Assembly (NCBI RefSeq): GCF_004210215.2 | Contig: NZ_CP067394.1 | Span: forward strand, 930,001-994,000 | Source: Cryobacterium sp. SO1 | GTDB lineage: Bacteria > Actinomycetota > Actinomycetes > Actinomycetales > Microbacteriaceae | Direction: 5' to 3' | DNA: 64,000 nucleotides | Part shown: piece by piece, positions 10,324 to 29,829 of the stretch | How the letters are laid out: every line of letters begins with the position of its first letter | Numbering within the stretch: position 1 is the first letter of the stretch | Translations under genes and position numbers: made by a program | The notes under the pieces: generated by a model | The model's input: the letters and a program-made list of their open reading frames with translations, nothing else | What the model was told of the DNA's origin: nothing | The model's database searches: none

Positions 10324-10339
10324 TCTGCCCGGAAGGAAC

Positions 10340-10591: not shown

Positions 10592-10605
10592 TACAGATTG
10601 AGAGA

Positions 10606-10635
10606 GGGGCGGACCTCCTCGAAGAGATCCGCCCC
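10606..10635 (+). terminator. Hairpin after the NifU-like gene, possible attenuator
   Basis: GGGGCGGA (10606-10613) pairs with TCCGCCCC (10628-10635), 15 bp after the stop. There is no T-run, so it may be a weak terminator or RNA-processing hairpin between the UGSC genes and the transporter. Confidence 0.35.
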
Positions 10636-10848
10636 GTGCAAAGGGCGAGAGCCACAGAAGGCCCCCTAGACACGTCCGAACTCTGGACTACGCGCCAGTG
10701 TCCTGAACGCAGCCAAGCTTGCCTCCGGGTGCCGGTCGCGACGGCTGCAGCCCAATTCGACAACACCTTTCATCTTGCGCAGGGCCAAGGCAGCGGCGCC
10801 GTTGCGCCCGCAACCGTTTCCATCAGGGGAACAGCGAAGGAGAACACC

Positions 10849-13035: not shown

Positions 13036-13082
13036 ATGACAGATACGATCGAGTGGCTGGGCGCGACGAAGCGGAGATATTT

Positions 13083-14036
13083 GTGCTTGCAATGGAATTC
13101 ACGGCGCGCGACGGAGTGCATCTACGTACTCGTGCCAAGCCGATCGCGGGCGAGGGGGAAGTGCTCGTCAAGGTGACGCGAGTAGGTATTTGCGGCACGG
13201 ATATCGGCGCGGTACAGCGGGGAAACCCTCAATTCCGTGACGGAATCGTGATCGGTCACGAGCTCGTGGGGGTGCGCCAGGACACGGGACAGCGTGTGAC
13301 CGTGATCCCACTCGTGGCGTGCGGAGCGTGCCGCGCATGCATCGCCTCGAGAGAAAACTTGTGTGCAGGCAAGGTGATTCTAGGTGCTCACATCGACGGG
13401 GTGCTCGCCGAATATGTGGCTCTGCCGGCGAAACAGCTCGTAGCGCTTCCCGACGATGTCGACGATGCCCAAGCTGCTCTGATCGAGCCAATGGCAACCG
13501 CCCTACACGCCTTGAGGCGGGCGCGAGTCGAGCCGGCATCTCGGGTCGCCGTGATCGGCGGTGGTGCAATCGGCCTGTGCCTGCTTGTAGCCGCCCGCGA
13601 GCACGCGAAAGCGTCTGTCTACCTCACCGAAATCGATGTGTCCAAGCACGGCATCGCCAATTCGCTCGGCGCCGAGGGCACAGGAACATCGATCGATGTA
13701 ACGAGCGTCGGACTCTTCGACGCCGTGTTCGACACTGTTGGGGCTGTCGCCACGCGCGAAAATGCGATCGCGGCCACTGTCCCGGGCGGACCCACCGTGT
13801 TTGTGGGGTTACATTCCCGTCAGCTCCCCGTCGACGGCAACGATGTCGTCACGCACGAGCGGACACTGCTCGGCAGCTTCGCCTATGATCGCGGCGACTT
13901 CCTCGATTCGATAGATCTAGTCAAACGTTCACCGGCTGATTGGGTGACGGAAGTGTCCTTCGCGGCCGCTGTCGATCTCATCAACGGAACGCTCGCGGCT
14001 CCTGCCGGAACTACGAAGCTCCATGTCCGCTTCTAA
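13083..14036 (+). CDS. Zinc-dependent alcohol dehydrogenase (MDR family)
   Basis: The 317-residue medium-chain dehydrogenase has the catalytic-zinc ligands in GICGTDIG and IGHELVG, the structural-zinc lobe with four Cys (CGACRACIASRENLC), and the Rossmann motif VIGGGAIGLC near residue 170. It groups by eye with threonine/sorbitol-type dehydrogenases and is slightly short. I use GTG 13083, preceded by GGAG at the right distance; ATG 13092 is an alternative. It is the first gene of the operon with the MHS transporter, the benzaldehyde-lyase-like enzyme and the SDR, so it probably oxidises a hydroxyl group of the imported compound. Confidence 0.75.
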   Translation: MLAMEFTARDGVHLRTRAKPIAGEGEVLVKVTRVGICGTDIGAVQRGNPQFRDGIVIGHELVGVRQDTGQRVTVIPLVACGACRACIASRENLCAGKVILGAHIDGVLAEYVALPAKQLVALPDDVDDAQAALIEPMATALHALRRARVEPASRVAVIGGGAIGLCLLVAAREHAKASVYLTEIDVSKHGIANSLGAEGTGTSIDVTSVGLFDAVFDTVGAVATRENAIAATVPGGPTVFVGLHSRQLPVDGNDVVTHERTLLGSFAYDRGDFLDSIDLVKRSPADWVTEVSFAAAVDLINGTLAAPAGTTKLHVRF

Positions 14037-14078
14037 GCCACCCCCCACATCGCATCAAAACAGCTGAAAGGAAACAGC

Positions 14079-15473
14079 GTGCCGAATAGCAACGACGCGA
14101 CCATCGCGCACTCTCCCACACCATCCCTTACTTCAAGCGATCGCAGGAAACAAACCCGTCGCGTCGCCGCGTCCAGCCTCATTGGGACCGCGGTCGAAAA
14201 TTACGACTTCTTCATTTACGGCACGGCGGCTGCCCTTGTGTTCAACGGCCTCTTCTTCACCGGAACCGATCCGGCACTGGCGACGATCGCAACCTTCGCG
14301 GTGTTCGCAGCCGGCTTCATAGCCCGTCCGCTCGGTGCCGTGATCTTCGGTTCGTTTGGTGACCGTATCGGCCGTAAATCGATGCTGGTGGCGACAATCG
14401 TCATCATGGGAGTCGCTACGACCGCGATTGGTCTCCTGCCCACCTACGCTGCAATCGGCGCGTGGGCGCCGCTGCTGCTGGTGCTCCTTCGCATCATTCA
14501 AGGCATTGCCGCCGGAGGCGAATGGGGCGGTGCCGCGTTGATGACCGTCGAGCACGCTCCCGAAGGACGACGTGGCCTCTATGGAGGCTTCACGCAAGCC
14601 GCAATCCCAGTAGCCTTCATTCTCGCCAACCTGGTCTTCCTTCCCCTGACGCTGCTTCTGACCGAGGAACAACTCACCAGCTGGGGCTGGCGTATCCCCT
14701 TTCTCGTCAGTATCGTCCTGGTCGGAGTCGGCGTCTTCATGCGCCTCCAAGTCTCCGAAAGTCCGGTGTTTGAAACCGTAAAAGAAGAACATAAAGCCGA
14801 GCGCTCGCCCTTCCTTCAAGTGCTTCGCAATCACTCAGGAGCGGTCGTACTCACCGCTCTCACCGTGGCGGCCACGAGCGCCATTGGATATATCAAGAAC
14901 GTCTACTTCCTCTCGTACACCACACAGGTTCTGGAGATGGACAGAACCATCGTGCTCGTCGCCATCCTCTGCAACGCCGTGGTCGAAATCTTCCTCACTC
15001 TCCTCTTCGCATCCCTTTCCGACCGCCTCGGACGGCGGAACGTGTTTCTCTTCGGCGCGGCGGTTTCTGCGCTCTGGGCAATCCCGTTCTTCCTGCTGGC
15101 CGATCTCGGATCCTTCGGCTTTCTGATGATCGCCCTAGTGGGCTCCGGGCTCGGCTCCACAGCCATGTTCGGCCCTCTGGCCGCCATGCTCGCCGAGAAG
15201 TTCAAGGCGGAGGTGCGCTACACCGGCGCCTCCCTCGGTTACCAGATCGGCAGCATCCTTGGCGGCGGGTTCGCCCCCCTCGTCGCCGCGGCCCTTTTCG
15301 CGGCGACAGGCTCGATCCTGTCGGTCTCGATCTACATGATCGTGCTCTGCGTAGTCAGCGCGATCGCTGCGTTCTTCGTGGGAGAGACCAGCAAAAACTC
15401 GATCACCTACAGCGCACCGAACGCGTCCCCCAACATCCCAGTGTCCGTCCATGCGAAAGAAGCCCAGCCGTGA
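14079..15473 (+). CDS. MHS-type MFS transporter (metabolite:H+ symporter)
   Basis: This 464-residue twelve-helix transporter carries SLIGTAVENYDFFIYG, GSFGDRIGRKSMLV and GEWGGAALM. It is clearly related to the transporter at 10849, differing mainly in the C-terminal half. The GTG start at 14079 follows AAAGGAAA. Its stop overlaps the start of the ThDP enzyme by 4 bp, so import and cleavage of the substrate are probably coupled. The substrate is likely an organic acid or aromatic hydroxyketone, by context. Confidence 0.85.
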   Translation: MPNSNDATIAHSPTPSLTSSDRRKQTRRVAASSLIGTAVENYDFFIYGTAAALVFNGLFFTGTDPALATIATFAVFAAGFIARPLGAVIFGSFGDRIGRKSMLVATIVIMGVATTAIGLLPTYAAIGAWAPLLLVLLRIIQGIAAGGEWGGAALMTVEHAPEGRRGLYGGFTQAAIPVAFILANLVFLPLTLLLTEEQLTSWGWRIPFLVSIVLVGVGVFMRLQVSESPVFETVKEEHKAERSPFLQVLRNHSGAVVLTALTVAATSAIGYIKNVYFLSYTTQVLEMDRTIVLVAILCNAVVEIFLTLLFASLSDRLGRRNVFLFGAAVSALWAIPFFLLADLGSFGFLMIALVGSGLGSTAMFGPLAAMLAEKFKAEVRYTGASLGYQIGSILGGGFAPLVAAALFAATGSILSVSIYMIVLCVVSAIAAFFVGETSKNSITYSAPNASPNIPVSVHAKEAQP

Positions 15474-17224
15474 CCCTCATCAGCGGAAACCAACTCCTCG
15501 TCGAAACCCTCACCCGATTCGGAGTGTCGACCATCTTCACACTCCACGGAGGACACCTTGACGGCGTGTACCGCAGTGCATTGGATGCTGGCATCCGCCT
15601 GATCGACACCCGTCATGAACAGGCTGCTGGATTCGCCGCGCAAGGCTGGGCGAAAGTCACGGGAGATGTCGGTGTGGCGATGGCCACTGCTGGCGGCGGC
15701 GTAACGAACCTCGTCACTCCGGTCGCGAACGCCTGGGCGGACGGGGTTCCCATGGTGTTCTTCGGCGCCGCCGCCCCGTTGCGTGATTTCGACGCCCTCC
15801 CTGTGAACAGTGGCTACGACCAGCTCAGCGTGATGAGCGGAATCACCAAATGGTCGCACCGCGCTACGGTGACCGCCCTCTTGCCTCAGGTCGTGGCCCG
15901 TGCTTTCCAGATCGCGAGAGAGGGCAAGCCGGGCCCGGTCTACATTGACCTGCCGACCGATGTGCTCTTCGCGCGTGTGGACTCCGAAGACGTTGTCATG
16001 CCCAACGGGGCACTCCGGCCGAGCCCACCGGCGCCCGACCCAACCGCGATCGCAGAGGTTGTGCGTCTGCTTCGGGACGCGAAGCGACCTGCCGTCCTGA
16101 CGGGCGCCGGTTCGGTCTTCCCGGATGCCGCGGCCGAGCTTCGTGAACTGGCCACTCGCTTAAATCTGCCAGTGCTTACCAACAACAAAAGTAAGGGCAT
16201 TGTGTCCACTACAAACAGGCACGCCGGCGGTAGCTACGGCGCCCTCGCGGGTGTTGCCCGGCGGACGGGCCGCCAGGCCGACGTCGTGCTCATCCTCGGT
16301 GCGCGACTCGGGCTAAATACGGGAGGGCGCCGCGGATCAGTCATCCCCGAAGGCGCTCGTGTCATCCAGGTCGACACGGTTGCGGAAGAGATCGGCCGGA
16401 TGCGTGACATCGACCTCGGCATCACGTCGGCCGTGCTGCCCTTCCTGAGGGCGGTACTCGACGCGAGTGCAGGCGTAAGCTTCGCCGCGGGCGGCGAGCG
16501 CGCGGCGTGGCTCGCGGAATTCACTCCGAAGTTGGCGGCTGCAGCAGCTGGTTCGCCTCCTACCGCGTCCAATAACAATGCGAACGCGCTCGAGACACCT
16601 GCTGGACTCGCTCGACAGGTGGCGCGGCTCGCACCCGCCGACACCATCTTCGTGCTTGACGGCGGCGAGACGCCGGCTTGGCTGGATGCCGTCGTTTCGC
16701 TAGAGGAGCCTCGGCGCTGGATCGGGCACGGCTACATGGGGATCATGGGCGAAGGCCTCCCGCAGGCGGTCGGCGCGCAGGTCGCCTCTCCCGACTCACC
16801 AGTCATCTGTTTCACGGGGGACGGCGCACTCGGCTTCACGCTGGGGGAGTTCGACACCCTCGTACGGCACAAGCTCCCAGTGATCGTGATCGTAAACAAC
16901 GACCGCGGCTGGGCGATGTCGCAGCACGGCCAGGACCTCATCTATGGCAAAGGTAGACGGATGATCTCCGACCTCGCACCCTCGCGCTATGATCTCGTCG
17001 CAGCCGCATTCGGTGCCCATGCTGAGTTCGTTGAAGAGCCTTCGCAATTCGAAGGAGCCCTGCAGCGTGCTCTCGACTCAGGTGGACCCGCCTGCATCAA
17101 CGTGCTGACCGATGCGATGGACATCGCCCCCGTCACGCGGCGCTTCGTCGGCGAGATCGCCGACGGCCCGCACACTCCAACCGGTCTCGCGCGAGTGCCA
17201 TACGCAGAGAGCCTCGCCGTATGA
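15470..17224 (+). CDS. ThDP-dependent lyase, benzaldehyde-lyase-like
   Basis: The 584-residue protein has the three domains of ThDP enzymes. The N-terminal catalytic part contains LHGGHLDGVY and DTRHEQAAGF, putting His at 29 and the cofactor-activating Glu at 50, the same numbers as in Pseudomonas benzaldehyde lyase as I remember it. The cofactor motif GDGALGFTLGEFDTLV followed by NND is near residue 450. Benzaldehyde lyase cleaves benzoin-type alpha-hydroxyketones to aldehydes. Here its Ala28 and Gln113 are replaced by Gly and Asn, so the substrate may differ. It overlaps both neighbours by 4 bp. Other ThDP families (acetolactate synthase, hydroxyacyl-CoA lyase) are less likely. Confidence 0.7.
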   Translation: MTLISGNQLLVETLTRFGVSTIFTLHGGHLDGVYRSALDAGIRLIDTRHEQAAGFAAQGWAKVTGDVGVAMATAGGGVTNLVTPVANAWADGVPMVFFGAAAPLRDFDALPVNSGYDQLSVMSGITKWSHRATVTALLPQVVARAFQIAREGKPGPVYIDLPTDVLFARVDSEDVVMPNGALRPSPPAPDPTAIAEVVRLLRDAKRPAVLTGAGSVFPDAAAELRELATRLNLPVLTNNKSKGIVSTTNRHAGGSYGALAGVARRTGRQADVVLILGARLGLNTGGRRGSVIPEGARVIQVDTVAEEIGRMRDIDLGITSAVLPFLRAVLDASAGVSFAAGGERAAWLAEFTPKLAAAAAGSPPTASNNNANALETPAGLARQVARLAPADTIFVLDGGETPAWLDAVVSLEEPRRWIGHGYMGIMGEGLPQAVGAQVASPDSPVICFTGDGALGFTLGEFDTLVRHKLPVIVIVNNDRGWAMSQHGQDLIYGKGRRMISDLAPSRYDLVAAAFGAHAEFVEEPSQFEGALQRALDSGGPACINVLTDAMDIAPVTRRFVGEIADGPHTPTGLARVPYAESLAV

Positions 17225-18033
17225 CCCGTTTAGGGGTTGGCTCGTCCCTTCTCCGGCTTTCCGGGCGCATCGCGCTCGTGACTGGCGCCGGCTCGGGAAT
17301 GGGTGCAGAGACCGCCCGTCGGTTGTATTCGGAGGGTGCGTCGATTCTTCTCGTTGATCGGGACGAGGCGGCGGCCAACGCGGTTGCTGCCGAACTCGGC
17401 GAATCCGCGCTCAGTTTCAAGGCGGATGTAACCGATCCAGACTCGATGGCAGAGGCGGTTGCGGTCGCGGTATCCCGCTGGGGTCGTCTTGATATCGCCG
17501 TCAATGCTGCAGGTATCGGCGCCAGCAGTCGGATCGTGGACCAATCAGTCGAGGACTTTCAGCGTGTAGTTGACGTGAACCTCCGCGGAGTCTTCGTGTG
17601 TTTGCAGTCAGAGCTGCGCCAATACGAGACCCAAGGCGGCGGAGGTGTAGTAGTGAACTTCTCCTCAACTAATGCGGCACAGCCCGGCGAGGGTCTCGCA
17701 GCGTACGCTTCCGCGAAGGCCGCGGTGTCGATGCTTACTCAGGTGGCCGCACTCGAGGTCGGCGCAGCCGGCACACGAGTGGTCGCTGTCGGCCCCGGTC
17801 TCACCGAGACTCCGATGGTTGCCCGACTCACGGGCGATACCAACGCGCGAAAGGCATTCGTCGACGGCATCCCGCTCGGACGGCCGGCGCAGCCATCGGA
17901 AGTTGCCGCGCTGGTAGCCTTTCTCTGTTCCGACGACGCGTCATACATCACCGGAGACACAGTCTTTGCCGATGGGGGCGCACTCACCCGGGCCTACCCG
18001 AGCCTCTTGGCGAGATCGGGCCGAGGAGCGTAG
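17221..18033 (+). CDS. SDR-family NAD(P)-dependent oxidoreductase
   Basis: The 270-residue short-chain dehydrogenase has the classical TGAGSGMG cofactor motif, NAAGIG, the catalytic Ser in VNFSSTNA, and YASAKAA with the Tyr-Lys pair. It starts inside the stop of the ThDP lyase (ATGA overlap). A role in oxidising or reducing the hydroxyketone substrate before or after carbon-carbon cleavage is inferred from the operon. Confidence 0.85.
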   Translation: MTRLGVGSSLLRLSGRIALVTGAGSGMGAETARRLYSEGASILLVDRDEAAANAVAAELGESALSFKADVTDPDSMAEAVAVAVSRWGRLDIAVNAAGIGASSRIVDQSVEDFQRVVDVNLRGVFVCLQSELRQYETQGGGGVVVNFSSTNAAQPGEGLAAYASAKAAVSMLTQVAALEVGAAGTRVVAVGPGLTETPMVARLTGDTNARKAFVDGIPLGRPAQPSEVAALVAFLCSDDASYITGDTVFADGGALTRAYPSLLARSGRGA

Positions 18034-18065
18034 AAGGTCGCGGACCGGAGTGAGGAGAAGAAGCC

Positions 18066-18773
18066 GTGAGTACCGAGATCGATGGAGCCGCCGTTCCCGG
18101 CAGCCAGCCGGAGTCGCAGGCGGCCGAGCGCGTGGTTCGCATCCTCGAGGTTGTCGCTGACGCCAATAAGCCGTTGTCGGTGGCCGAGATAGCGGCGGAA
18201 CTAGGCCTGCACCGCTCGATAATCTATCGCTTCCTCCGTACCTTGCTGCGTACACGACTCGTGCGGCAGCGTGCCGACGGTGGATATGAGCTTGGACCCG
18301 GTCTGGTTGCGCTTGCTCTCAAGGTCACCCATGATGTCCCGGCACTCATACGCCCACGTTTACAGCTGCTTGCGGACACATGCGGAGCAACGGCGTTCAT
18401 CACTGAGCTTGACGAGAACCGATCGCTCTGCCTCATGTCGGTGGAACCCACATCGTCACGTACCCATCTCATCTTCCGCCCGGGTACAGTCGGGCCTGTT
18501 GATCGGGGCGCAGCTGTGATGGCGATTTTCTCCGGCCTTCCCGCAGTGCCGGGTGAGCCTCAAGAAGCAGCGAAGGCACGCATCGATGGTTACGCCTGGT
18601 CTGCCGGCACAATCACCCCCGGAATCGAGTGTGTTGCGAGCCCCGTCCTCTTGCCTATGTCGGACGTGCCGGCCAGCGTTGCCGTCATCTATCCCGTGGG
18701 AAGTCGAGTGGTCGAACACGTAGTCGAAGAAGTGCGAAGCGCGGCGGCCCAGATTGATGCACTCTTCACCTAA
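18066..18773 (+). CDS. IclR-family transcriptional regulator
   Basis: This 235-residue regulator begins at GTG 18066 (32 bp after the SDR stop). The helix-turn-helix is in LSVAEIAAELGLHRSIIYRFLRTLL, cut here into the two parts LSVAEIAAELGL and HRSIIYRFL, and the effector domain follows from about residue 85. The domain has the degenerate form FRPGTVGPVDRGAAVMAIFSG of the usual G-x-x-hPL-H-x-S-A-x-GK segment: the His and Lys are missing, which may mark an unusual effector. It closes the hydroxyketone operon and probably controls it through the palindrome at 13021-13035. Confidence 0.8.
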   Translation: MSTEIDGAAVPGSQPESQAAERVVRILEVVADANKPLSVAEIAAELGLHRSIIYRFLRTLLRTRLVRQRADGGYELGPGLVALALKVTHDVPALIRPRLQLLADTCGATAFITELDENRSLCLMSVEPTSSRTHLIFRPGTVGPVDRGAAVMAIFSGLPAVPGEPQEAAKARIDGYAWSAGTITPGIECVASPVLLPMSDVPASVAVIYPVGSRVVEHVVEEVRSAAAQIDALFT

Positions 18774-18844
18774 ATGGTTCACGGCGAGCCGTTTCCAACG
18801 CCGCTGTATGAACGGCCTGGGCGCGTCGGGCTCACGCCCTCGCT

Positions 18845-19021
18845 TTCGCCCTGATCGATCTGCGCCTGGCGCACCCACCGGCGCAGCGACTCGGCACCGA
18901 ACCCGAGCCGGGCCGAGACCCTCGCGCACGCGGACGTCAGGTTCGGGTACTCATCGAGATGATCCAGCACGAGCCTGACCGCGCGCTGCTTCGTCTCCTC
19001 CGGGATCCTCTGCTGACGTGG
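18845..19021 (-). pseudogene. IS3-family transposase OrfA remnant
   Basis: On the minus strand the sequence encodes PEETKQRAVRLVLDHLDEYP, then LGFGAESLRRWVRQAQIDQGE, the helix-turn-helix core of IS3 OrfA. There is no start codon, Fe-S or OrfB part, and it ends within 80 bp of both neighbours. It lies in opposite orientation to the remnant at 12391-12711, on the other side of the hydroxyketone module. Confidence 0.6.
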
Positions 19022-19043
19022 GAGCGCTCCTCTCGGACGGCCG

Positions 19044-20588
19044 TCAACCCGTCTGCAGACGCACTGCGTAGCTGTGCCAACCACCGCTGCGAACATCCAC
19101 GATGAGATCACCGTCGACGACGCGCGCGCCGAGATCAGCCAAAGCCGTCGCATCACTCAGCGATGCCTCGCCACCATCCGCTGCGAGGACTGCCGTTTCC
19201 CCGAGGTTGCTTACCTGAAACTGCGAACCGTGCCGATCTTTCGCGGTTGTCGCCTCAACGTGCAGAGTTTTGGTCCCTGCATCGAAATAGGCGACGCGCA
19301 CGATCACTTCGCCGCGCACTTCGGTCACCATGGGCTCGCGGAAGTGCGCGTCATCCCACGGCTCGGCGTAGAGCCGGTGCAGCCCGTCGGGCACATTGAG
19401 TCGGGCATAGGCGAGTAGGACGTTGCCGGTGATCGGATCCATCAGAGTGAGATTGCCCGCCGCGTCGACTGATGTGTCGTTGCGGGGATAATGAAGGCCA
19501 CCGTCGGCCCAGAGAGGGTGCATGTAGCGGTCCGCATGCGTGAGGAGACCCGCGAGCGTGTCAGCATCACCCATCTCCGAAGCCCACGCAGCCGTCCATC
19601 CGAAGTCGCCCCAGTCGTATTTGAGGGTCTGACCCATCAGCTGTCGAGGCGGTGTGGGGCGGATCGAGAGCGCACCGTGCTCGCCGGGGACGAGGATGTC
19701 GCGAATCTGCGAGGGATAGTGCTCGTGAACGAAATCGCGGTTCCACATGTTCATGAGGGTGCCGTTCCACGCGTCGACCCAGGGCATGATCAGTGCGTTC
19801 TCAAACACTTTTCGCGAATCCGTTGCGACGAGCGTGTTGTAGTGCCCGTTCTCTCCGAGCCTGCCAAGGCTTGCCCACGCGTTCTCGTACTCCCGGACGA
19901 CCTCCTGCGCGCGGGAACCGCCGTTGACGACGTCATGCAGACGGAACCCGAGGATGGCCGGCTGGTTGCAGATCTGGAAGACGCAGTTCGGCTCGCATGC
20001 CACGCCGATGTACCCGTTCGAGACCATCTGCCAATAGATGTGCTCATTCAGGCTGTTCTCGTCGTAGTCGAAGCGACGGGATTCTCCGCCCCAGAAAAAG
20101 GACCAATGCTCCATCGACAGCGCTTCGGATTGCGCGTATCGGTCGTCACGGAACAGGTAGTGGTGTAGCAGCGCCATCGACTGCACGTAAGCGCTGTACA
20201 TGATGTTGTCCTGTGCGACGGGATCCCACTTTTCGCTCAGCGGCCCGAGGTGAGCGTTGTACACCGACCCGCCGCGGCTCACGTCGTGCCAGTACGACCA
20301 CACCTCGGGAAGCAGCATCTTCTGCATTATCCGCTCCAGCATCGGACGGAACACTCCCGGTGCGTTCGGCAGTCGATGCTGATGGGTCAGCGCGAGGGCA
20401 TAGGTCATGTAGGCCAATTGAAACCGGTACCCGCCGAAGTCGTCCTGACCGAATCCCTTGCCCTGCATGAGGGACCAGTCGTTGTCCAGGCGTAGGGAGA
20501 GGTTGTCGAAATGCCGGAGATGGCCGAGCTGAAGATCGTCGAGACCGCGCCGGGCGTACTCCGACGGAGGGTTGCCTGCCGATGTCAT
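19044..20588 (-). CDS. Linalool dehydratase-isomerase-like protein
   Basis: This 514-residue protein resembles linalool dehydratase-isomerase (LDI) of Castellaniella, an (alpha/alpha)6-barrel enzyme that hydrates or dehydrates terpene alcohols without a cofactor. Visible matches are DPVAQDNIMYSAYVQSM, then GVACEPNCVFQICNQP with Cys198 and Cys207 nine residues apart, the spacing of the catalytic Cys171/Cys180 of LDI, and an Asp at 28 matching Asp39. The LDI His129 position is Tyr134 here. A beta-rich C-terminal extension (about 400-514) is additional. No signal peptide is seen, unlike periplasmic LDI. Last gene of a 4-bp-overlapping operon. Family good; substrate unknown. Confidence 0.65.
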   Translation of the reverse strand: MTSAGNPPSEYARRGLDDLQLGHLRHFDNLSLRLDNDWSLMQGKGFGQDDFGGYRFQLAYMTYALALTHQHRLPNAPGVFRPMLERIMQKMLLPEVWSYWHDVSRGGSVYNAHLGPLSEKWDPVAQDNIMYSAYVQSMALLHHYLFRDDRYAQSEALSMEHWSFFWGGESRRFDYDENSLNEHIYWQMVSNGYIGVACEPNCVFQICNQPAILGFRLHDVVNGGSRAQEVVREYENAWASLGRLGENGHYNTLVATDSRKVFENALIMPWVDAWNGTLMNMWNRDFVHEHYPSQIRDILVPGEHGALSIRPTPPRQLMGQTLKYDWGDFGWTAAWASEMGDADTLAGLLTHADRYMHPLWADGGLHYPRNDTSVDAAGNLTLMDPITGNVLLAYARLNVPDGLHRLYAEPWDDAHFREPMVTEVRGEVIVRVAYFDAGTKTLHVEATTAKDRHGSQFQVSNLGETAVLAADGGEASLSDATALADLGARVVDGDLIVDVRSGGWHSYAVRLQTG

Positions 20589-21103
20589 GATCCGCCGCTC
20601 TGGGAAGCTGACAGGGAGATCAACTGCCGCAGTCGAGCGGTCACCTCGGGCGCCGGCATGCCGTCGCCGAAGTGAGCGAGGTAGTCGCCCTTGGGATCGA
20701 ACACGTATGTGAACGCCGAGTGCGGCATCGCGTATCCGTCGGGCTCCTGCGGATCGTCCCGGCGTCGAGAGAAGACATGCAGCGACTGCTGGAAATCCCG
20801 GAGTCTCCCGCGGTCGCCGGTGAGACCTGAGAAGCGCGGATAATCCTGCTCCAGGAACGCCCGCAGCACCTCCGGCGAGTCGCGGTCGGGGTCGACGGTG
20901 ACGTAGAACGCACGGATGTCGTTGTCGTCGGCGCCGAGTTCATCCAAGCTCGCGGAGAGCTTGCCGAGTGCCCGTGGGCAGACCATGCGGCAGTTGGTGA
21001 AGCCGAAGAAGAACAGGCTCAACGCGCCGTGCGCAGCGGATTCGTCGACCAAGCCGTCGCGATCGTCGACGAGCGAGAAGTGCAGGTTGGCTGGGGCGGT
21101 CAT
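20585..21103 (-). CDS. SCO1/SenC-family protein without signal peptide
   Basis: The 172-residue thioredoxin-fold protein has the copper/redox motif Cys38-x3-Cys42-Pro (TNCRMVCPRAL) and the distal His128 (MPHSAFTYVFDP). SCO proteins normally deliver copper to cytochrome oxidase from the membrane, but this one begins directly in the fold with no membrane anchor or signal, so it should be cytoplasmic. It overlaps nitrilase upstream and the LDI-like gene downstream by 4 bp each. A thiol-redox or metal-handling role for the partner enzymes is inferred; no oxidase genes are nearby. Confidence 0.75.
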   Translation of the reverse strand: MTAPANLHFSLVDDRDGLVDESAAHGALSLFFFGFTNCRMVCPRALGKLSASLDELGADDNDIRAFYVTVDPDRDSPEVLRAFLEQDYPRFSGLTGDRGRLRDFQQSLHVFSRRRDDPQEPDGYAMPHSAFTYVFDPKGDYLAHFGDGMPAPEVTARLRQLISLSASQSGGS

Positions 21104-22176
21104 GGGGCGGTCGCAGTCTCGGAGAAGACGTCGTTCTGCGAGACGCCCTCGTGTACCGCTCCGAAAAGGAAAGGCTCTCGTTCTGCAGTTGCTTGCAGCA
21201 CGGGGTTAGCGGCTTCGTGGAGCGATTCGGGTGCCGGTGAAAAATGAGCGGGTTCCCGCTTGGTGCGGTTGACGTGGAAGTCGAAGACGTCGGGTCGGCT
21301 GTAGTGGCCGACCGGGTCTGCGTAATTCTTGGCGGTAATGACGGCGGTGAGATCGAGGTCGGCGTAGACGAGGCCCTCTTCTTCGGCAGCCAAGGGCTGA
21401 GAGATGAGTGCTCCGTCAGGGCCAAAGACGCGGGCGACGCCCGCACCGGGTCCGGTCGCGAGGATCTCCGGGGGTATGCCGAGGCGTTCCGCGCCTGCGG
21501 TCGTCATGATCTGACAGGCGACGAGGACGAAGCCGCCGCCTTCCATGGCGTAGGTCTGGCTGGCCGCGAGGGAGGCGTCGGAGGTGAGTGCGAAGTGGTG
21601 GGCGGGGACGCTGAAGCATGGCCAGGAGGCGACGTGAATCTGCTCGTTCTGCGCGTACATGGCGAACTTGACCAGTGGTTGCAGGTGTTCCCAGCAGTTG
21701 AGTCCGCCCAGTCGCCCGAATGGTGTCTCGACGACCTGGAGGCCTGATCCGTCACCTTCGCCAAAGAGGGAGCGCTCGACGTGGGTCGGTTTGAGCTTGC
21801 GGCGGTGGAGACGGACATCGCCGGTGTCGTCGATGATGAGTTGAGAGATGTAAAGCGTGCCGTGCACCCGCTCGCTGATGCCGATAACCACCCAGGTCTT
21901 GTTCGCACGGGCGCTGTCACGGATGCGGTCGATCTGCGTTCCGCCGACCGTCGCCGAGTTCGCGTGGTACTCCGCAACGAGGCCCGCTTGCTGGGCGGGA
22001 GTGTGGCTCCACAGGAACAGTGGGTACCCCGGCAGCCAGGTCTCGGGGAACGCGATGAGCTGCGCCCCGCCGCGCGCGGCTTCGGAGATGAGATCAAGCG
22101 TCTTGGCCGTGGTGGCTTCCAGGTCAAACCAGACCGGCTCGGCTTGAACGGACGCGATACGAACAGTACTCGACAT
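21100..22176 (-). CDS. Nitrilase (aliphatic/arylacetonitrilase type)
   Basis: The 358-residue enzyme has the nitrilase triad Glu45 (FPETWLPGYP), Lys127 (HRRKLKPTHVE) and Cys161 (LNCWEHLQPL), with spacing like that of Rhodococcus J1 nitrilase. It would hydrolyse a nitrile to an acid and ammonia. I start at ATG 22176 because AGGAGG (22183-22188) is 6 bp away; the upstream ATG at 22182 touches the ribosome site. It is the first gene of the operon and divergent from an AraC-family gene, the usual regulator type for nitrilases. The true nitrile is unknown. Confidence 0.85.
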   Translation of the reverse strand: MSSTVRIASVQAEPVWFDLEATTAKTLDLISEAARGGAQLIAFPETWLPGYPLFLWSHTPAQQAGLVAEYHANSATVGGTQIDRIRDSARANKTWVVIGISERVHGTLYISQLIIDDTGDVRLHRRKLKPTHVERSLFGEGDGSGLQVVETPFGRLGGLNCWEHLQPLVKFAMYAQNEQIHVASWPCFSVPAHHFALTSDASLAASQTYAMEGGGFVLVACQIMTTAGAERLGIPPEILATGPGAGVARVFGPDGALISQPLAAEEEGLVYADLDLTAVITAKNYADPVGHYSRPDVFDFHVNRTKREPAHFSPAPESLHEAANPVLQATAEREPFLFGAVHEGVSQNDVFSETATAP

Positions 22177-22367
22177 GGCCATCCTCCTTGAGTGCGCAGC
22201 GACGCGGCAGTCCGGGCCGTCGAGCACCACTCTAAGGTCCGCGGATACGCCCGAGGGCGGCCCGGGCTATGTCAAATCGGGTCGTTTGCGCACACCGCGC
22301 GTGACAAAACATGAACGTAATGAAATCGTAATCTGTTGGAAACATTTACCGTGACACGCTCGAGTGT

Positions 22368-23303
22368 ATGGCACGGGTGCAGATGGACAACGCGGAGGCT
22401 TTCGAGGCAGCCGTTTCGGACTCCTTCGTGCCTCTGCGCGTGTCGCGTGCGACCGAGCCAAGCCTGCGCGGGTCGGTCGAGCAGAGAAGTGCGGGCGCCG
22501 CCGCAATCAGTTTGGTTCGGACCGGGCCGGTCAGTGTTCACCGCTCGGCGGAACTGATCAACGACTCCCCGCGCAGCCTCGTACTCCTCACCATGCAGCT
22601 GCACGGTTCCAGCACCGTGAGCCAGGGCGGGGCGACAGCACGCCTGCGACCCGGTCAGGGCGCCATCTACCTCTCGGACAGGCCGTACGATCTGGTGACC
22701 CAGGTCCGAAGTGGAGTTGTCGTCTTCCACACCCCGCTTCATCTGCTCAACCTAAGCGACACGGATTGGGTTCCCGGTGCCCCTCGCGTCTTGGATGCGG
22801 CGACGAGCTGGGACTACCGGATGCTGCGCAATCTCTCGCGGTCCTACCTGCGGGCCATGCCGCTGATCGATGACGAGGGCCAGATGGAGCTGATCGCAAC
22901 AGGTCTCGTCGCATCGATCATGGCGAGGGCGTCCCGGGGGCGGAGTGGGCCTCTCGACCATTACACGCTGTTCGCCCTGCTGACGGAGGAGATCGACGCT
23001 CGACTGGGGGATCCCTCCCTCTCCGTCGCCAGTCTGGCTCGAACAAACGGTGTTTCCGATCGCACGGTATATCGATGCTTCGAGGTCATGGGTCACTCGC
23101 CGGCAGCGGTATTTCGCGCCCGGAGGTTGGATCGCGCAGCCTCGCTTCTGACCTCGACTGGCATGTCGGTGGCTCAGATTGCATCAGAGGTGGGAATGCT
23201 CGATCCCTCGACGCTGTCGAAGTCATTGCGTCGCGACAGGGGGACGTCCGCAAGAGGCATCCGCGCGGCATCCATTCCGGTGGGGCACCCTCGGGCGGGA
23301 TAA
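22368..23303 (+). CDS. AraC/XylS-family transcriptional regulator
   Basis: The 311-residue protein has an N-terminal cupin-like sensing domain (about 10-190, similar to the AraC-binding-like domain of XylS/NitR types) and a C-terminal double helix-turn-helix (about 205-300, with LARTNGVSDRTVYRCFEVMG and SVAQIASEVGMLDPSTLSKS). It is divergent from nitrilase with 191 bp between starts. In that gap CGTAAT occurs at 22316-22321 and 22327-22332, an 11-bp direct repeat that could be an activator site. It probably switches on the nitrilase operon in response to the nitrile. Confidence 0.8.
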   Translation: MARVQMDNAEAFEAAVSDSFVPLRVSRATEPSLRGSVEQRSAGAAAISLVRTGPVSVHRSAELINDSPRSLVLLTMQLHGSSTVSQGGATARLRPGQGAIYLSDRPYDLVTQVRSGVVVFHTPLHLLNLSDTDWVPGAPRVLDAATSWDYRMLRNLSRSYLRAMPLIDDEGQMELIATGLVASIMARASRGRSGPLDHYTLFALLTEEIDARLGDPSLSVASLARTNGVSDRTVYRCFEVMGHSPAAVFRARRLDRAASLLTSTGMSVAQIASEVGMLDPSTLSKSLRRDRGTSARGIRAASIPVGHPRAG

Positions 23304-24078: not shown

Positions 24079-25542
24079 TTAGTCGGTCGGGATCAGCGTG
24101 TACTTGGTGGACAAGAATTCGTAGATACCTTCCAGCCCGCCCTCACGACCGACCCCCGATTGTTTGATGCCACCGAACGGGGCCGCGGCATTGGAGACGA
24201 CCCCCGCGTTGAGGCCCATCATGCCCGTCTCGAGGCGGTCGATCATGCGGTGACCGCGGGCGAGGTCCTGCGTGTAGACATAGGAGACGAGCCCATACTC
24301 GGTGTCGTTAGCGAGGCGAACGGCCTCCTCCTCATCGTCGAAGGTCGCGATCGCTAGCACAGGGCCAAAGATCTCTTCGCGCAGGATTGCGCTTCCTGCA
24401 GCCACCCCGAGGAGAACCGTAGGGGCGTAGAACGTTCCAGGACCGTCGAGTGATGTGCCACCCGTGAGCAAAGTCGCTCCTCGGTCAACCGCGTCGACTA
24501 CAAGCGCGTTGGCCTTGGCAACGGCCTCTGCGTCGATGAGCGGGCCGATGACGACGCCCTCCTCTGTGCCTCGGCCGATGCGCATGCCATCAACACGCTC
24601 GGTGATCTTGGCGGCAAAGACCTCAGCAACCGAGGCGTGCACGATGAACCGGTTCGCAGCGGTGCAGGCTTGGCCCACATTGCGAAATTTTGCTGCGATC
24701 GCGCCGTCAATGGCCTTCTCGATGTCGGCGTCCTCGAAGACGATGAACGGCGCATTGCCGCCGAGCTCCATTGAGACGCGCAAGACGCCCTCAGCGGCTT
24801 GCGCTATGAGCTGCCGCCCGACTTCCGTCGAGCCAGTGAAGGACAGCTTTCGCAGCCTTGGGTCGGTGATGATCGGCGTCGCGACGCGACGCGCGGAGGC
24901 CGAGGGGATGACGTTGACGACACCCGCTGGTATGCCGGCATCGGCAAGTATCTGGGTGAAGAAGAGCGTAGTGAGTGGAGTGAGCTGCGGCGGCTTGATG
25001 ACCACAGTGCATCCTGCCGCCAACGCCGGCGCGATCTTTCGAGTCGCCATTGCGAAGGGGAAGTTCCATGGAGTTATGAAGAACGAAGGGCCAACGGAGT
25101 GCTGAGACACGATCATCCTGCCGGTGCCCTCGGGGTTCAGCCCGTAGCGTCCGGTGATGCGCACCGCCTCCTCGCTGAACCAGCGCAGGAATTCGGAACC
25201 GTAGGCCACCTCGCCGCGCGCCTCGGAGAGCGGCTTGCCCATCTCAAGTGTCATGAGGAGCGAAACATCCTCCTTGCGTTCCTCGACGAGTTCCCATGCG
25301 CGGCGCAAAATGTCGCTTCGGGTGCGCGGCGCCGTCGCCGCCCAGCTTGCCTGAGCCGCGACCGCCGCGTCGAGTGCTCGTGTGCCGTCGTTAGCCGTGG
25401 CATCGGCGACACGTGCAATGACGTCGGTCGTCGACGGGTCGAGAACATCAAAAGTTCCACCACCCGACGCGTCTTGCCATTCGCCGCCGATGAAGAGGCG
25501 GCTGGGAACTCCTGCAAGCAGGGCTGTCTCTCTGTCATTCAT
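24079..25542 (-). CDS. gabD: Succinate-semialdehyde dehydrogenase-type aldehyde dehydrogenase
   Basis: The 487-residue aldehyde dehydrogenase has the GabD-like features: ITPWNFPFAM, the cofactor segment KLSFTGSTEVGRQL, the catalytic-Glu region VSMELGGNAPFIVFED and the catalytic Cys in FRNVGQACTAANRFIV. I start at ATG 25542, which overlaps the aldolase stop by 8 bp; the longer frame upstream has no support. As last gene of the homoprotocatechuate operon it would oxidise the succinate semialdehyde released by HpaI to succinate for the TCA cycle. It is paralogous to HpaE at 28333. Confidence 0.85.
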   Translation of the reverse strand: MNDRETALLAGVPSRLFIGGEWQDASGGGTFDVLDPSTTDVIARVADATANDGTRALDAAVAAQASWAATAPRTRSDILRRAWELVEERKEDVSLLMTLEMGKPLSEARGEVAYGSEFLRWFSEEAVRITGRYGLNPEGTGRMIVSQHSVGPSFFITPWNFPFAMATRKIAPALAAGCTVVIKPPQLTPLTTLFFTQILADAGIPAGVVNVIPSASARRVATPIITDPRLRKLSFTGSTEVGRQLIAQAAEGVLRVSMELGGNAPFIVFEDADIEKAIDGAIAAKFRNVGQACTAANRFIVHASVAEVFAAKITERVDGMRIGRGTEEGVVIGPLIDAEAVAKANALVVDAVDRGATLLTGGTSLDGPGTFYAPTVLLGVAAGSAILREEIFGPVLAIATFDDEEEAVRLANDTEYGLVSYVYTQDLARGHRMIDRLETGMMGLNAGVVSNAAAPFGGIKQSGVGREGGLEGIYEFLSTKYTLIPTD

Positions 25543-26359
25543 GCGGTGCTTCTTTCTCGCAGAAGTTCTTGCGCTCGAGTGCGGCGCTGGGGATGAAAGT
25601 TGTGGCGAGGGCTTCGGACGCTCTGGCAACTAGGGCGACATCTGCGCCGACGAGCACGAATGTTGCCCCTGCTTCGACGTACGTACGCGCACTGTCAGGA
25701 TCGAATGCGTTAACCCCGACCGGTTTGCCGCTGCGTGCCACGTTCGTGATCGCGCGACGCACCGCCGCGACAACCTCAGGATGTGTTTGTTGGCCGATCA
25801 CGCCCATTGACGCGGCCAGGTCACTGGGCCCGACGAAGACCCCGTCAATGCCGGGGGTAGAGGCAATCTCGTAGGCATTCTCGACACCCTCCGCCGTCTC
25901 GACTTGCACGAAAACCGAGACGTGCTCCGCGGCATTGGCCAGGTAATTCTCGACTCGATTCCAGCGTGCCGAACGGGCGAGCGCGCTGCCGACCCCGCGG
26001 CGACCGGCGGGAGGGTACTGAGTTGACGCCGCGACGGCGCGCGCCTGGTCCTCCGTCGACACCATCGGCACAAGGATCGTCTGAGCTCCGAGGTCGAGCA
26101 CCTGCTTGATTACTATTGCATCGCCAGTCGGAACGCGAACGACAGGCGTGGCCGGATAGGCCGACACGGCGTGCAGCTGCGCGAGAACCGAGGTCAGCTC
26201 ATTGGGCGCGTGCTCCATGTCTATGAGGACCCAGTCGAGGCCTGAACCCGCCATGATCTCCGCCATGATCGCGGATCCGGAGCTCACCCATCCTCCGAAG
26301 AGGGGGCGGGACGCGGTAGCAAGTCGACGCCGGAGCGTCGGGCTCAGATGAAGCGACAT
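25535..26359 (-). CDS. hpaI: 4-hydroxy-2-oxo-heptane-1,7-dioate aldolase
   Basis: The 274-residue class II aldolase of the HpcH/HpaI family cleaves 4-hydroxy-2-oxoheptanedioate to pyruvate and succinate semialdehyde. Diagnostic parts are DWVLIDMEHAPNE, the Arg in VVRVPTGD, FVQVETAEGVEN with the metal-binding Glu, and DGVFVGPSDLAASMG with the metal-binding Asp. The start overlaps the hydratase stop by 16 bp. The C-terminal 15 residues are charged and extend slightly past the usual end. Confidence 0.9.
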   Translation of the reverse strand: MSLHLSPTLRRRLATASRPLFGGWVSSGSAIMAEIMAGSGLDWVLIDMEHAPNELTSVLAQLHAVSAYPATPVVRVPTGDAIVIKQVLDLGAQTILVPMVSTEDQARAVAASTQYPPAGRRGVGSALARSARWNRVENYLANAAEHVSVFVQVETAEGVENAYEIASTPGIDGVFVGPSDLAASMGVIGQQTHPEVVAAVRRAITNVARSGKPVGVNAFDPDSARTYVEAGATFVLVGADVALVARASEALATTFIPSAALERKNFCEKEAPHE

Positions 26360-27129
26360 GAGATGGTTCCCATCGGGCCATAGTCGGCGAGCACCGAGTC
26401 GCCCTTCTCAACCCACATCGGGCGGGTGAATGACCCCGAAAGAATGACCTCGCCGGCATCCAGCCGGGAGCCGTGCTGGTGGAGTTTGTTCGCCAGCCAT
26501 GCGACCCCTGTCGCTGGATGATTGAGCACCGCGGCCGCGACTCCTGATTCCTCTATCGTTTCGTTGCGGTAGAGCAGGGCGGAGACCCACCGGAGGTCGA
26601 CTGCGTCGGGCCGAGTCGGATTGCCGCCGAGTACCAATCCGCCATACGCGGCGTTGTCGCTGATGGTGTCGACGATCGTGCGGCCGTCGAGTTCGATGTG
26701 TGAATTGAGGATCTCGAGCGCCGGAGCGACATATTCCGTCGCTCGCAGAACATCGAACACAGTGCAGTGCGGTCCTTCCAATGCATCCTTCAGGATGAAG
26801 GCGAGCTCAACCTCAACTCGAACATTGGAGAATCGGTCGTGGGGAATCAGCGAGCCGTTTTTCCAGACGGTATCGTCGAACATCACGCCGTAGTCAGGCT
26901 CCGTGATGCCTGTCGCCTGCTGCATTGTGCGAGACGTGAGTCCGATTTTTCGGCCTACCAGGCGTCGTCCGGCGGCGAGTTGGCCGTCGCGCCAGACGCC
27001 CTGGATGGCGTACGAATCCTCCACCGTCGCCTCGGGATGACGGGCGGTGATGCGCGGGATGGTTGTCCCGTCACGGTCGGCCGCAGCTAGTTCCTCGGCG
27101 ATATGCGAGATGGTCGTTTCGGGAAGCAC
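26344..27129 (-). CDS. hpaH: 2-oxo-hepta-3-ene-1,7-dioate hydratase
   Basis: The 261-residue enzyme belongs to the hydratase/decarboxylase family (HpaH, MhpD, XylJ). It shows GRKIGLTSRTMQQATGI, EPDYGVMFDD and the metal-site strand VEVELAFIL followed later by PALEILNSHI. It adds water to the oxo-heptene-dioate to give the HpaI substrate. The start is GTG 27129 with TAGGAG upstream, 8 bp after the dioxygenase stop. HpaH rather than MhpD is inferred from the operon. Confidence 0.85.
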   Translation of the reverse strand: MLPETTISHIAEELAAADRDGTTIPRITARHPEATVEDSYAIQGVWRDGQLAAGRRLVGRKIGLTSRTMQQATGITEPDYGVMFDDTVWKNGSLIPHDRFSNVRVEVELAFILKDALEGPHCTVFDVLRATEYVAPALEILNSHIELDGRTIVDTISDNAAYGGLVLGGNPTRPDAVDLRWVSALLYRNETIEESGVAAAVLNHPATGVAWLANKLHQHGSRLDAGEVILSGSFTRPMWVEKGDSVLADYGPMGTISCRFI

Positions 27130-27137
27130 GGCGTCTC

Positions 27138-28295
27138 CTAGAGCTGGTGGCCGAGCTTGTACTCGCCCTGCTTGTATTCGGGGAGTTCGTCACCCGACCG
27201 GGTGTGGGAAAAGCCATCGGCCCCGATTGTGACGGCCATTTCACTGGCGTCGGTGCGGGCAACGACCGGCTGCGGATTGCCGTCCAGATCGAGCACAAGG
27301 GAAGCCTCTGTGTACCAGGACGGCACGACCGGATTACCCCACCAGTCACGGCGCTGATTGTCGTGCACGTCCCACGTGATGACAGGGTTGTCCGGGTCGC
27401 CGGTGTAGTAGTCCTGCGTGTAGATCTCCACCCGGTGGCCGTCCGGGTCGCGCAGGTAAAGATAGAACGCATTGGAGACGCCGTGCCGGCCCGGCCCACG
27501 CTCAATCGCATCCGATCGGCGCAGAGCCCCGAGCTTGTCGCAGATCGCGAGGATATTGTGCTTCTCGTGCGTGGAAAACGCGATGTGGTGCATACGTGGA
27601 CCATCGCCGCCCGTCATCGCGGTGTCGTGTACCGTCGGCTTGCGCCGCATCCACGCTGCGAAAACGGTGCCGTTTTCATCCTGGATGTCCTCCGTGACGC
27701 GAAATCCGAGGTCCTGCATGAACTTCACTGCACGAGGGACATCCGGAGTCACCTGATTGAAATGGTCCAGACGCACCAGCGCGCCCGGGGTGTGCAGATC
27801 GTAACGCCAGGCGAGACGCTCAACGTGTTCGACTTCATGGAAGAATTCGTGCGGGAATCCCAGCGGGTCTTCGACTCGAACGGACTCGCCGATACCATTC
27901 GTCCAGCCAGCGTCGCGTCGCTCGACGCGGCAACCAAGCTCGGTATAGAAGGCGACTGCCTTGTCGAGGTCCGCTGGCGTGCGAACGCGGTAGCTGATGA
28001 CGGCGACCGCCGCCACCGGTCCCTTTCGAAGAACGAGGTTGTGGTGGATGAACTCCTCGATCGAGCGCAGGTAGATGGCCTCTTCGTCTTCCTCGGTGAC
28101 GGCGAGGCCTAGGACATCGACGTAAAAGGCGCGAGAAGCGGCCAGATCGGTGACAACGAGTTCCATGTACGCGCATCGCAGAATGTCGGGGGCAGGTGCG
28201 CTCGGTGTCGGGACGGGATTATCACTGTAGATGGGCGCCTCCTGCGAGATGTAGAAGCCCGCGGTGGAGAGAGTGCGATCATGCATGTGTGTCAT
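27138..28295 (-). CDS. hpaD: 3,4-dihydroxyphenylacetate 2,3-dioxygenase (homoprotocatechuate dioxygenase)
   Basis: The 385-residue extradiol dioxygenase is very like the well-studied Fe(II) enzyme of Brevibacterium and the Mn(II) enzyme of Arthrobacter. It opens the ring of homoprotocatechuate. The metal ligands are visible: His in VRLDHFNQVTPDVP, His in MHHIAFSTHEKH and Glu in HRVEIYTQDYYTGD. The C-terminal lid region (DNQRRDWWGNPVVPSWYTEA) is intact. I start at ATG 28295, preceded by AAGGACG; the frame is open upstream, overlapping the next gene, without support. The metal, Fe or Mn, cannot be told from sequence. Confidence 0.93.
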   Translation of the reverse strand: MTHMHDRTLSTAGFYISQEAPIYSDNPVPTPSAPAPDILRCAYMELVVTDLAASRAFYVDVLGLAVTEEDEEAIYLRSIEEFIHHNLVLRKGPVAAVAVISYRVRTPADLDKAVAFYTELGCRVERRDAGWTNGIGESVRVEDPLGFPHEFFHEVEHVERLAWRYDLHTPGALVRLDHFNQVTPDVPRAVKFMQDLGFRVTEDIQDENGTVFAAWMRRKPTVHDTAMTGGDGPRMHHIAFSTHEKHNILAICDKLGALRRSDAIERGPGRHGVSNAFYLYLRDPDGHRVEIYTQDYYTGDPDNPVITWDVHDNQRRDWWGNPVVPSWYTEASLVLDLDGNPQPVVARTDASEMAVTIGADGFSHTRSGDELPEYKQGEYKLGHQL

Positions 28296-28332
28296 ATCAG
28301 CGTCCTTGCGTGATGTCTGATGGTCGGGGTGG

Positions 28333-29829
28333 TCAGTTCTTGCCGAAGGTGGGGTTGTGGGCCTCGCCGAGGGTGATGTGCACGGCCTGCTGGTCGGTGT
28401 AGAAATCGATCGAGCGATATCCGCCCTCGTGTCCGAGGCCGGAGGCCTTGACGCCGCCAAACGGTGTGCGGAGGTCGCGCACGTTGTTGCTGTTCAGCCA
28501 CACCATGCCGGCCTCGATTGAGCTCGCGAAGGTGTGGGCCCGCTTGAGGTCATTGGTCCACACGTAGGCGGCGAGCCCATACCTCACGCCATTCGCCAGC
28601 GCGAGCGCTTCGTCGTCGGTGTCGAATGGGGTGATCGCGACGACAGGGCCGAAGATCTCTTCTTGGAAGATGCGGGCGTCGGCAGACACATCGGCGAAGA
28701 CGGTGGGAGCCACGAAATTTCCCGTCGGGAACCCCTCGGGTCGACCGCCGCCGGCCACAAGGCGGGCCTCCAACTTGCCGATCTCGACGTAGCTCATAAC
28801 CTTGTCGAAGTGTTCCGGGTGAACGAGCGCCCCTACTTCGGTCGCAGGATCGTGCGGGTATCCGACCTTGATTCGTTTCGCCTGCGCCGCGTACCGCTCG
28901 ACAAACTCGGTGTAGACCGAGCGTTCGACCAAGATGCGCGAGCCGGCCGTGCACCGCTCGCCGTTGAGGGAGAACACGCCGAAGATCGTCGCGTCTATCG
29001 CGGCGTCGATATCTGCATCGGCGAACACGATTGCCGGTGATTTGCCGCCGAGCTCCATCGACAGGCCCTTGAGAAATGGTGCGGCGTTGCCAAAGATGGT
29101 CTGACCTGTGCGGCTCTCGCCGGTGAACGAGATCAGCGGCACGTCCGGGTGTTTCACCAGCGCGTCGCCGGCGTCTTCGCCGAGGCCGTTCACGAGGTTG
29201 AACACGCCTCGGGGGAGTCCTGCCTCTTCGAAAATTCCCGCCCACAGCGACGCCGACAGCGGGGTGAATTCGGCGGGTTTGAGAACGACCGTGTTGCCGG
29301 TGGCGAGCGCGGGGCCGAGCTTCCACGACTCGAGCATGAACGGGGTGTTCCACGGCGTGATGAGGCCTGCAACACCGATGGGCTTGCGGTTGACGTAGTT
29401 GAGCTGACGTCCGGGAACCTTGAAAGTATCGTCCGCTTGGGCGACGATGAGATCCGCGAAGAAGCGGAAGTTTTCGGCGGCGCGCCGTGCTTGGCCGAGT
29501 GCCTGCGTGATCGGCAAGCCGGAGTCATAGCTCTCCAGCTCGGCAAGCCGTTGATCGCGTGATTCGACAATGTCTGCAATGCGGTGCAACACACGGCTCC
29601 GCTCCCGCGGGAGCATTCGTGGCCATTTACCGTGGCCGAAAGCCGTCCTGGCGGAGGCAACCGCGAGATCGATGTCCGCCTTTTTCCCGGCGGCGGCGGT
29701 AGCGTAGTTTTCGTTCGTCACCGGGTCCAGCACGTCGAAGGTGTCGCCGTCGGCGGAGTCGACGAATGCGCCGTTGATGTAGTGCTGAATGTGACCGGGG
29801 AGATCTGCGGGAATGCGAGTTTCTACCAT
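28333..29829 (-). CDS. hpaE: 5-carboxymethyl-2-hydroxymuconate-6-semialdehyde dehydrogenase
   Basis: The 498-residue aldehyde dehydrogenase has ITPWNTPFMLESWKLGPAL, SFTGESRTG, GLSMELGGKSPAIVF and the catalytic Cys in NGERCTAGSRILVE, typical of HpaE and related semialdehyde dehydrogenases. It oxidises the ring-cleavage product of HpaD to the dicarboxylate. It lies 37 bp upstream of hpaD and 15 bp after the GntR gene. Assignment to HpaE over other aldehyde dehydrogenases rests on position and overall similarity. Confidence 0.88.
   Translation of the reverse strand: MVETRIPADLPGHIQHYINGAFVDSADGDTFDVLDPVTNENYATAAAGKKADIDLAVASARTAFGHGKWPRMLPRERSRVLHRIADIVESRDQRLAELESYDSGLPITQALGQARRAAENFRFFADLIVAQADDTFKVPGRQLNYVNRKPIGVAGLITPWNTPFMLESWKLGPALATGNTVVLKPAEFTPLSASLWAGIFEEAGLPRGVFNLVNGLGEDAGDALVKHPDVPLISFTGESRTGQTIFGNAAPFLKGLSMELGGKSPAIVFADADIDAAIDATIFGVFSLNGERCTAGSRILVERSVYTEFVERYAAQAKRIKVGYPHDPATEVGALVHPEHFDKVMSYVEIGKLEARLVAGGGRPEGFPTGNFVAPTVFADVSADARIFQEEIFGPVVAITPFDTDDEALALANGVRYGLAAYVWTNDLKRAHTFASSIEAGMVWLNSNNVRDLRTPFGGVKASGLGHEGGYRSIDFYTDQQAVHITLGEAHNPTFGKN

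Follow-up and report, generated by a model that had tools for sequence, protein, structure and literature searches.

The chemistry proposed for linalool dehydratase/isomerase (LDI), an enzyme of Castellaniella defragrans, involves protonation of the substrate via a cysteine, and the enzyme is described as oxygen-sensitive and as wanting a mild reductant (PMC6013536). The linalool isomerase of Thauera linaloolentis, a membrane-anchored enzyme of an anaerobic denitrifier, is inactive until reduced; the enzymes with which other bacteria isomerize 2-methyl-3-buten-2-ol to prenol are described in the same paper as uncharacterized (PMC4791888). Here we describe an LDI-like gene of Cryobacterium sp. 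SO1 that is coupled to the gene of a SCO-like protein, a relative of the Sco1/SenC copper/thiol proteins (e.g., Blr1131, PDB 4wbj), and to a nitrilase gene. The operon lies in a 64,000-nucleotide stretch of contig NZ_CP067394.1 (positions 930,001 to 994,000), hereafter the window, whose own numbering is used below:

19044-20588 (-), LDI-like protein, 514 aa; Pfam Ldi (PF18566), 365 bits (cut-off 26.1)
20585-21103 (-), SCO-like protein (SCO), 172 aa; Pfam SCO1-SenC, 122.1 bits over residues 8-140 (cut-off 22.8)
21100-22176 (-), nitrilase, 358 aa; Pfam CN_hydrolase, 175.5 bits; best PDB match nitrilase 8uxu (1.8e-96)
22368-23303 (+), AraC-type regulator, divergent from the operon; Pfam AraC_binding_2 and HTH_18

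The nitrilase/SCO and SCO/LDI junctions are both 4-bp ATGA overlaps, and the nitrilase ATG is preceded by AAGGAGG. The overlaps and coordinates confirm the view of a first-pass annotation of this DNA that the three genes are one tightly coupled unit divergent from the AraC gene, and the family names it gave to all four proteins were matched by Pfam profiles. The genome has a single SCO and a single LDI, both in this operon.

The LDI-like and SCO-like proteins

The LDI-like protein has the (alpha,alpha)6 fold of LDI, which starts at model residue 9, followed from about residue 420 by an extra, beta-rich C-terminal part. In a profile alignment the catalytic Cys171 and Cys180 of LDI correspond to C198 and C207, which are kept in all 80 LDIs of the comparison set described below. 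Between them sits a further cysteine, C202, to give a three-cysteine loop (C198-x3-C202-x4-C207). His129 of LDI, which we take to be a catalytic residue, aligns with Tyr134, a tyrosine in 80/80 proteins; this piece of the alignment is weak by itself and is anchored by the common NIMY motif. Compared with the C. defragrans enzyme, the window protein differs in its Tyr134, third cysteine, C-terminal part and SCO partner, and, judging from the start of its fold and from hydropathy, it also shows no signal peptide that would point to the periplasm. None of the 80 LDIs had an N-terminal hydropathy above 1.3. The reductant-requiring T. linaloolentis isomerase belongs to the class of chemistry proposed here, a likeness drawn from its description rather than its sequence (PMC4791888).

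SCO shares the family, the CxxxC motif and the distal histidine of Sco1/SenC proteins. C38, C42 (C38xxxC42) and H128, presumably the Sco copper ligands, are each invariant in an alignment of the window protein with 71 LDI-linked SCOs (72/72). Because the SCO domain sets in as early as residue 8, there is no space for an N-terminal membrane anchor or export signal. In the other LDI-linked SCOs, which were judged by hydropathy, the N-terminal value was mostly 0.5-1.5, with a maximum of 1.61 (locus L043). Furthermore, LDI-linked SCOs carry CxxxCPR (R in 71/72; CPT in L076) where other SCOs have CPDxCP. The window SCO has Asp14 at a position occupied by His in all 71 other aligned proteins.

Both the LDI fold and the Sco family were already known; a dedicated partnership of the two, marked by a diagnostic third cysteine, did not turn up in the open-license literature searched. 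There, no paper was found that combines linalool dehydratase with nitrilase or SCO1 or, among the papers listed, with SCO family or SenC; nor was one found for nitrilase with SCO family protein or for SCO1 with linalool and copper.

Pairing of LDI and SCO across genomes

Eighty LDI loci, the best 80 of 88, were collected from species genomes with the patterns DNIMYSAY and FQICNQPA, which cover neither Cys202 nor SCO yet favor one clade. Gene starts, gaps and overlaps in these loci rest on a simple start rule, and neighbor counts on our own gene calls and on clusters that were labelled after a single representative or a small number of them. An SCO of the LDI type stood beside LDI in 71 of the 80 loci. 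In 70 of these it was on the same strand and within 100 bp or overlapping, with 4-bp overlaps in 36 (SCO downstream in 35, upstream in one); in the remaining locus (L072) it was divergent and 111 bp away. In another locus (L074) the SCO is of the CPD type and is encoded on the opposite strand. In four loci SCO was more than 1 kb from LDI. One of them (L075) reads SCO-ADH-LDI, where ADH is alcohol dehydrogenase, and two (L031 and L033, the SCO of the latter being a fragment at the locus end) match the layout of a Variovorax paradoxus plasmid, which carries on a single strand genes for SCO, a TetR regulator, a thiamine diphosphate (ThDP) enzyme, a short-chain dehydrogenase/reductase (SDR), ADH, transporters, a hydrolase and LDI. 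The last four loci had no SCO. L019 begins at the edge of its contig; for L027, L048 and L078, a single LDI-type SCO is encoded elsewhere in the respective genome, in the case of L027 and L078 at partner loci of the same genome (L073 and L079). Because the two genes are neighbors in 71 loci fetched by LDI patterns alone, their pairing is not chance, and the conserved unit is LDI plus SCO. LDI and SCO distances correlate over the 71 loci (r 0.52; top of 500 shuffles, 0.18).

The third cysteine tracks the presence of SCO. In 200 genomes of one actinobacterial family (that of genome G458, which contains the Actinomycetospora locus L012), an Ldi-family gene occurs in 21 and a three-cysteine LDI in 13, and all 13 of the latter carry an adjacent SCO with CxxxCP(R/A). 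SCO matches below 1e-30 occurred in 18 of the 200 genomes, 13 of them beside LDI; four genomes have a CPD-type SCO and no LDI, one has an LDI-type SCO alone (see below), and the remainder had no or weak SCO matches, eight weak ones being judged by E-value only, without the locus. The cysteine comparison of the 80 LDIs also listed 27 distant matches, of which three belonged to the 80 and 24 remained. A separate, broader sample of 41 loci, less four duplicates and one without an LDI match, left 36. Within flanks of about 1.5 kb, SCO accompanied none of 31 LDIs whose third position is Trp, Leu, Lys or Gln and all five with the third cysteine, three of these five being the window and the two search centers. 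Two divergent pairs (L151 and L152) have an LDI with CEPNC.FIVCN and an SCO with CxxICPA rather than CPR, and there too third cysteine and SCO occur together. At L059, L066 and L074, a further Ldi-family gene that lacks the third cysteine lies on the minus strand within 10 kb of a three-cysteine LDI gene; the one at L066 adjoins genes for aldehyde dehydrogenase (ALDH), CoA ligase and ADH.

The neighborhood of LDI in the 80 loci is enriched in two kinds of gene. ADH genes numbered 18 within 5 kb of LDI and one beyond (p 8e-5), and TetR genes 11 and none (p 8e-4). For one such ADH (L022), the closest structures are 5tnx and 1f8f, a benzyl alcohol dehydrogenase (3.7e-100). For example, L059 has a divergent TetR gene followed by ldi-sco-adh-ligase-aldh, L052 and L053 have tetR/ldi-sco-adh-ligase with ALDH further upstream, and L072 has the TetR, ldi, sco, adh, ligase and aldh genes in a different order. 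By analogy with the linalool pathway, such gene runs would fit a route from a tertiary or allylic alcohol through primary alcohol, aldehyde and acid to acyl-CoA.

The nitrilase and the surrounding genes

The nitrilase has the motifs PETW (44), KLKP (127) and NCWEH (160), which we take to be those of the Glu-Lys-Cys triad, and stays below the cut-off of the Nit6803 family (TIGR04048; 245.8 versus 502.6 bits). A nitrilase profile matched one of the 80 LDI loci, L015 of Rhodococcus koreensis, where two genes separate it from LDI in the order nitrilase, heme-containing (aldoxime-type) dehydratase, AraC, LDI, SCO, DUF5134 and a regulator grouped with the Fis type, followed by ALDH, ADH and CoA ligase (L015:6587-18905). 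Furthermore, the Cryobacterium genome has a second nitrilase, 77% identical, at about 3.135 Mb (L106:8983-11123). No SCO or LDI adjoins it, and it is paired with a divergent AraC gene that shares 59% identity with that of the window. The genome thus contains an AraC-nitrilase module twice, one copy of which is joined to SCO-LDI. When 57 genomes of the genus were searched at E 1e-80, such a nitrilase was found in one, that of the window. We conclude that the nitrilase is an addition to LDI plus SCO in this lineage. PMC8955678 describes AraC-linked nitrilase and aldoxime-nitrile clusters, in which, as twice in this genome, the nitrilase adjoins AraC; here SCO and LDI are appended, and an aldoxime dehydratase search of this genome gave no match, the control searches being equally silent.

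Genes on the opposite strand, which the first-pass annotation had left unconnected to the operon as far as 18033, have relatives at LDI loci elsewhere, except for the IclR gene that ends the list:

13053-14036 (+), Zn-type ADH; Pfam ADH_N and ADH_zinc_N; 39-42% relatives in LDI clusters L031, L033 and L201
14079-15473 (+), major facilitator superfamily (MFS) transporter of the metabolite/H+ symporter type; Pfam MFS_1; TIGR00883, 428.5 bits (cut-off 443.45)
15470-17224 (+), ThDP enzyme; nearest solved chain benzaldehyde lyase, PDB 3iae (4.2e-110)
17221-18033 (+), SDR dehydrogenase; Pfam adh_short_C2
18066-18773 (+), IclR-type regulator behind the SDR gene; Pfam HTH_IclR; placed in the island by position only

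In Variovorax and Xenophilus, relatives of the dehydrogenases and the benzaldehyde-lyase-like enzyme (13053-18033) are encoded between SCO and LDI within the same cluster. In a search of 72,556 plasmid records at 1e-40, the V. paradoxus LDI cluster supplied the best of 25 matches to the ThDP enzyme (49.0%; the next, 37.7%) and the sole match to the SDR (58.1%). Within the 80 loci the ThDP-SDR-ADH trio is confined to L031 and L033. The transporter has 43-46% relatives on LDI loci L012, L013, L021 and L023, and its membership is weaker. These relatives in LDI clusters suggest that 13053-22176 is probably one catabolic island, and the ThDP enzyme suggests that an acyloin may be cleaved in the pathway. 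An assignment of 15470-17224 as acetolactate synthase was rejected (332 bits versus a curated cut-off of 587), benzaldehyde lyase being the nearest solved enzyme.

An open reading frame (ORF) at 18779-19156 (-), which overlaps the end of the LDI gene, has a weak match to the transposase family HTH_Tnp_1 (22.6 bits, cut-off 24.1; E 1.2e-4). It is possibly an insertion-element remnant, and the island may therefore have been acquired; no repeats were detected at 18700-19100 and 22160-22400. Upstream, at 6361-12231, are a FAD/NAD oxidoreductase, another IclR regulator, a 377-aa ORF that matches no Pfam family and another MFS transporter. On the other side, an ALDH, an HpcH/HpaI-type aldolase, an unassigned 261-aa protein and a protein of the glyoxalase/dioxygenase superfamily (24079-28460) look like an aromatic meta-cleavage cluster.

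Proposed function, alternatives and significance

The reading we favor, with a probability of about 0.55 from sequence comparison, is that the LDI-like protein is a catabolic (de)hydratase or isomerase with a Sco protein dedicated to serving its three-cysteine loop. The enzyme would isomerize or (de)hydrate an allylic or tertiary alcohol, after which dehydrogenases would take over, and the nitrilase would feed a related nitrile, as acid or amide, into the same route. SCO would service the Cys198/Cys202/Cys207 loop in the cytosol of aerobic cells. It would most likely do so by keeping or returning the loop thiols reduced, for which we see a little under an even chance, or alternatively by inserting copper into the loop, a less probable role that is retained because H128 is invariant.

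Several observations weigh against this reading. Because the LDI His129 aligns with Tyr134, the chemistry of the LDI-like protein may differ from that of LDI, and the loop is modeled with a predicted local distance difference test (pLDDT) score below 50 at residues 199-201. Gene counts near LDI versus beyond were not significant for CoA ligase (19 v 11), ALDH (11 v 9) and SDR (9 v 6). The three-cysteine LDIs probably form one clade, so that the linkage of third cysteine and SCO may reflect one or few origins, and the two may simply have one common ancestor. There are also exceptions to the linkage. One of the 200 actinobacterial genomes has an LDI-type SCO without a three-cysteine LDI (L179), and the genome G1250, which has the pair elsewhere, contains a fragmentary second three-cysteine LDI in several frames with no adjacent SCO (L170). 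At L171, an LDI without the third cysteine follows closely behind the SCO of a three-cysteine pair. Finally, the 29-kb Rhodococcus erythropolis plasmid pRSLBG43 (L203/L205) encodes a three-cysteine LDI and no SCO is annotated on it. A DUF1942 gene adjoins this plasmid-borne LDI, with ALDH, ADH, CoA ligase, P450 and Rieske dioxygenase genes nearby.

Three other explanations were weighed. The SCO1/SenC family name invites the view that SCO is a general respiratory factor for cytochrome oxidase that merely hitchhikes with LDI. We rejected it on distribution and regard it as very improbable: SCO matches were absent or weak, some barely above the Pfam cut-off, in 24 same-genus relatives, and most of the 200 family genomes had no strong match either. 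The window SCO also has no N-terminal anchor, the LDI-linked motif differs from that of CPD/CPE-type SCOs in three of the same genomes, and the linkage to LDI persists across different gene orders. The proposal of the first-pass annotation that nitrilase, SCO and LDI make up one nitrile-specific pathway draws on the ATGA coupling of the three genes and on R. koreensis, where the genes for nitrilase, aldoxime dehydratase and AraC immediately precede LDI-SCO. In addition, nitrilase relatives (85% and 79%) and SCO relatives (83% and 68%) were found on metagenome contigs of equal size (7713 and 14539 bases), a size match which suggests that these contigs may carry both genes in the arrangement of the window. 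However, no LDI on contigs of these sizes was among the 120 LDI matches listed, the nitrilase paralog of the same genome has no SCO or LDI beside it, and a co-occurrence check set beforehand for the three families gave a divided answer, with LDI and SCO adjacent in 71/80 loci and nitrilase absent from 79. The claim of a single conserved three-family system thus falls, and we consider the nitrile-specific pathway improbable. As to the accompanying idea of a terpene-like nitrile substrate, a terpene-alcohol-like substrate is plausible because ADH genes adjoin LDI elsewhere. An LDI match was found in one of 40 genomes of relatives, that of the window.

The remaining alternative is a sub-case of the favored explanation, in which SCO would deliver Cu(I) to the loop and members of this LDI subfamily would act on alkenes or allyl alcohols as (de)hydratases or isomerases that depend on copper. 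The invariant Cys, Cys and His of the LDI-linked SCOs and the covariation of the third cysteine with SCO support it, as plain thiol exchange needs no distal histidine. On the other hand, cytosolic copper enzymes are rare and the loop geometry is poorly modeled. The known LDI, moreover, has no cofactor (PMC6013536). We treat a copper enzyme as a tentative possibility. Similarly doubtful, in our estimate, is a gated enzyme, in which a cytosolic Sco would load copper into the loop or reversibly oxidize it, making a Cu(I)- or disulfide-gated alkene/allyl-alcohol (de)hydratase.

Both enzymes studied so far, LDI and linalool isomerase, belong to anaerobic pathways and are oxygen-sensitive or reductant-dependent. 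The near-constant Sco partner and the diagnostic third cysteine make aerobic operation of such chemistry directly testable, point to candidate biocatalysts for allylic alcohols and suggest a role for a Sco protein outside cytochrome oxidase. If copper or disulfide gating were true, it would add a new cofactor or switch to cofactor-free hydratase chemistry in aerobic terpenoid or nitrile catabolism and would give the Sco protein a new job.

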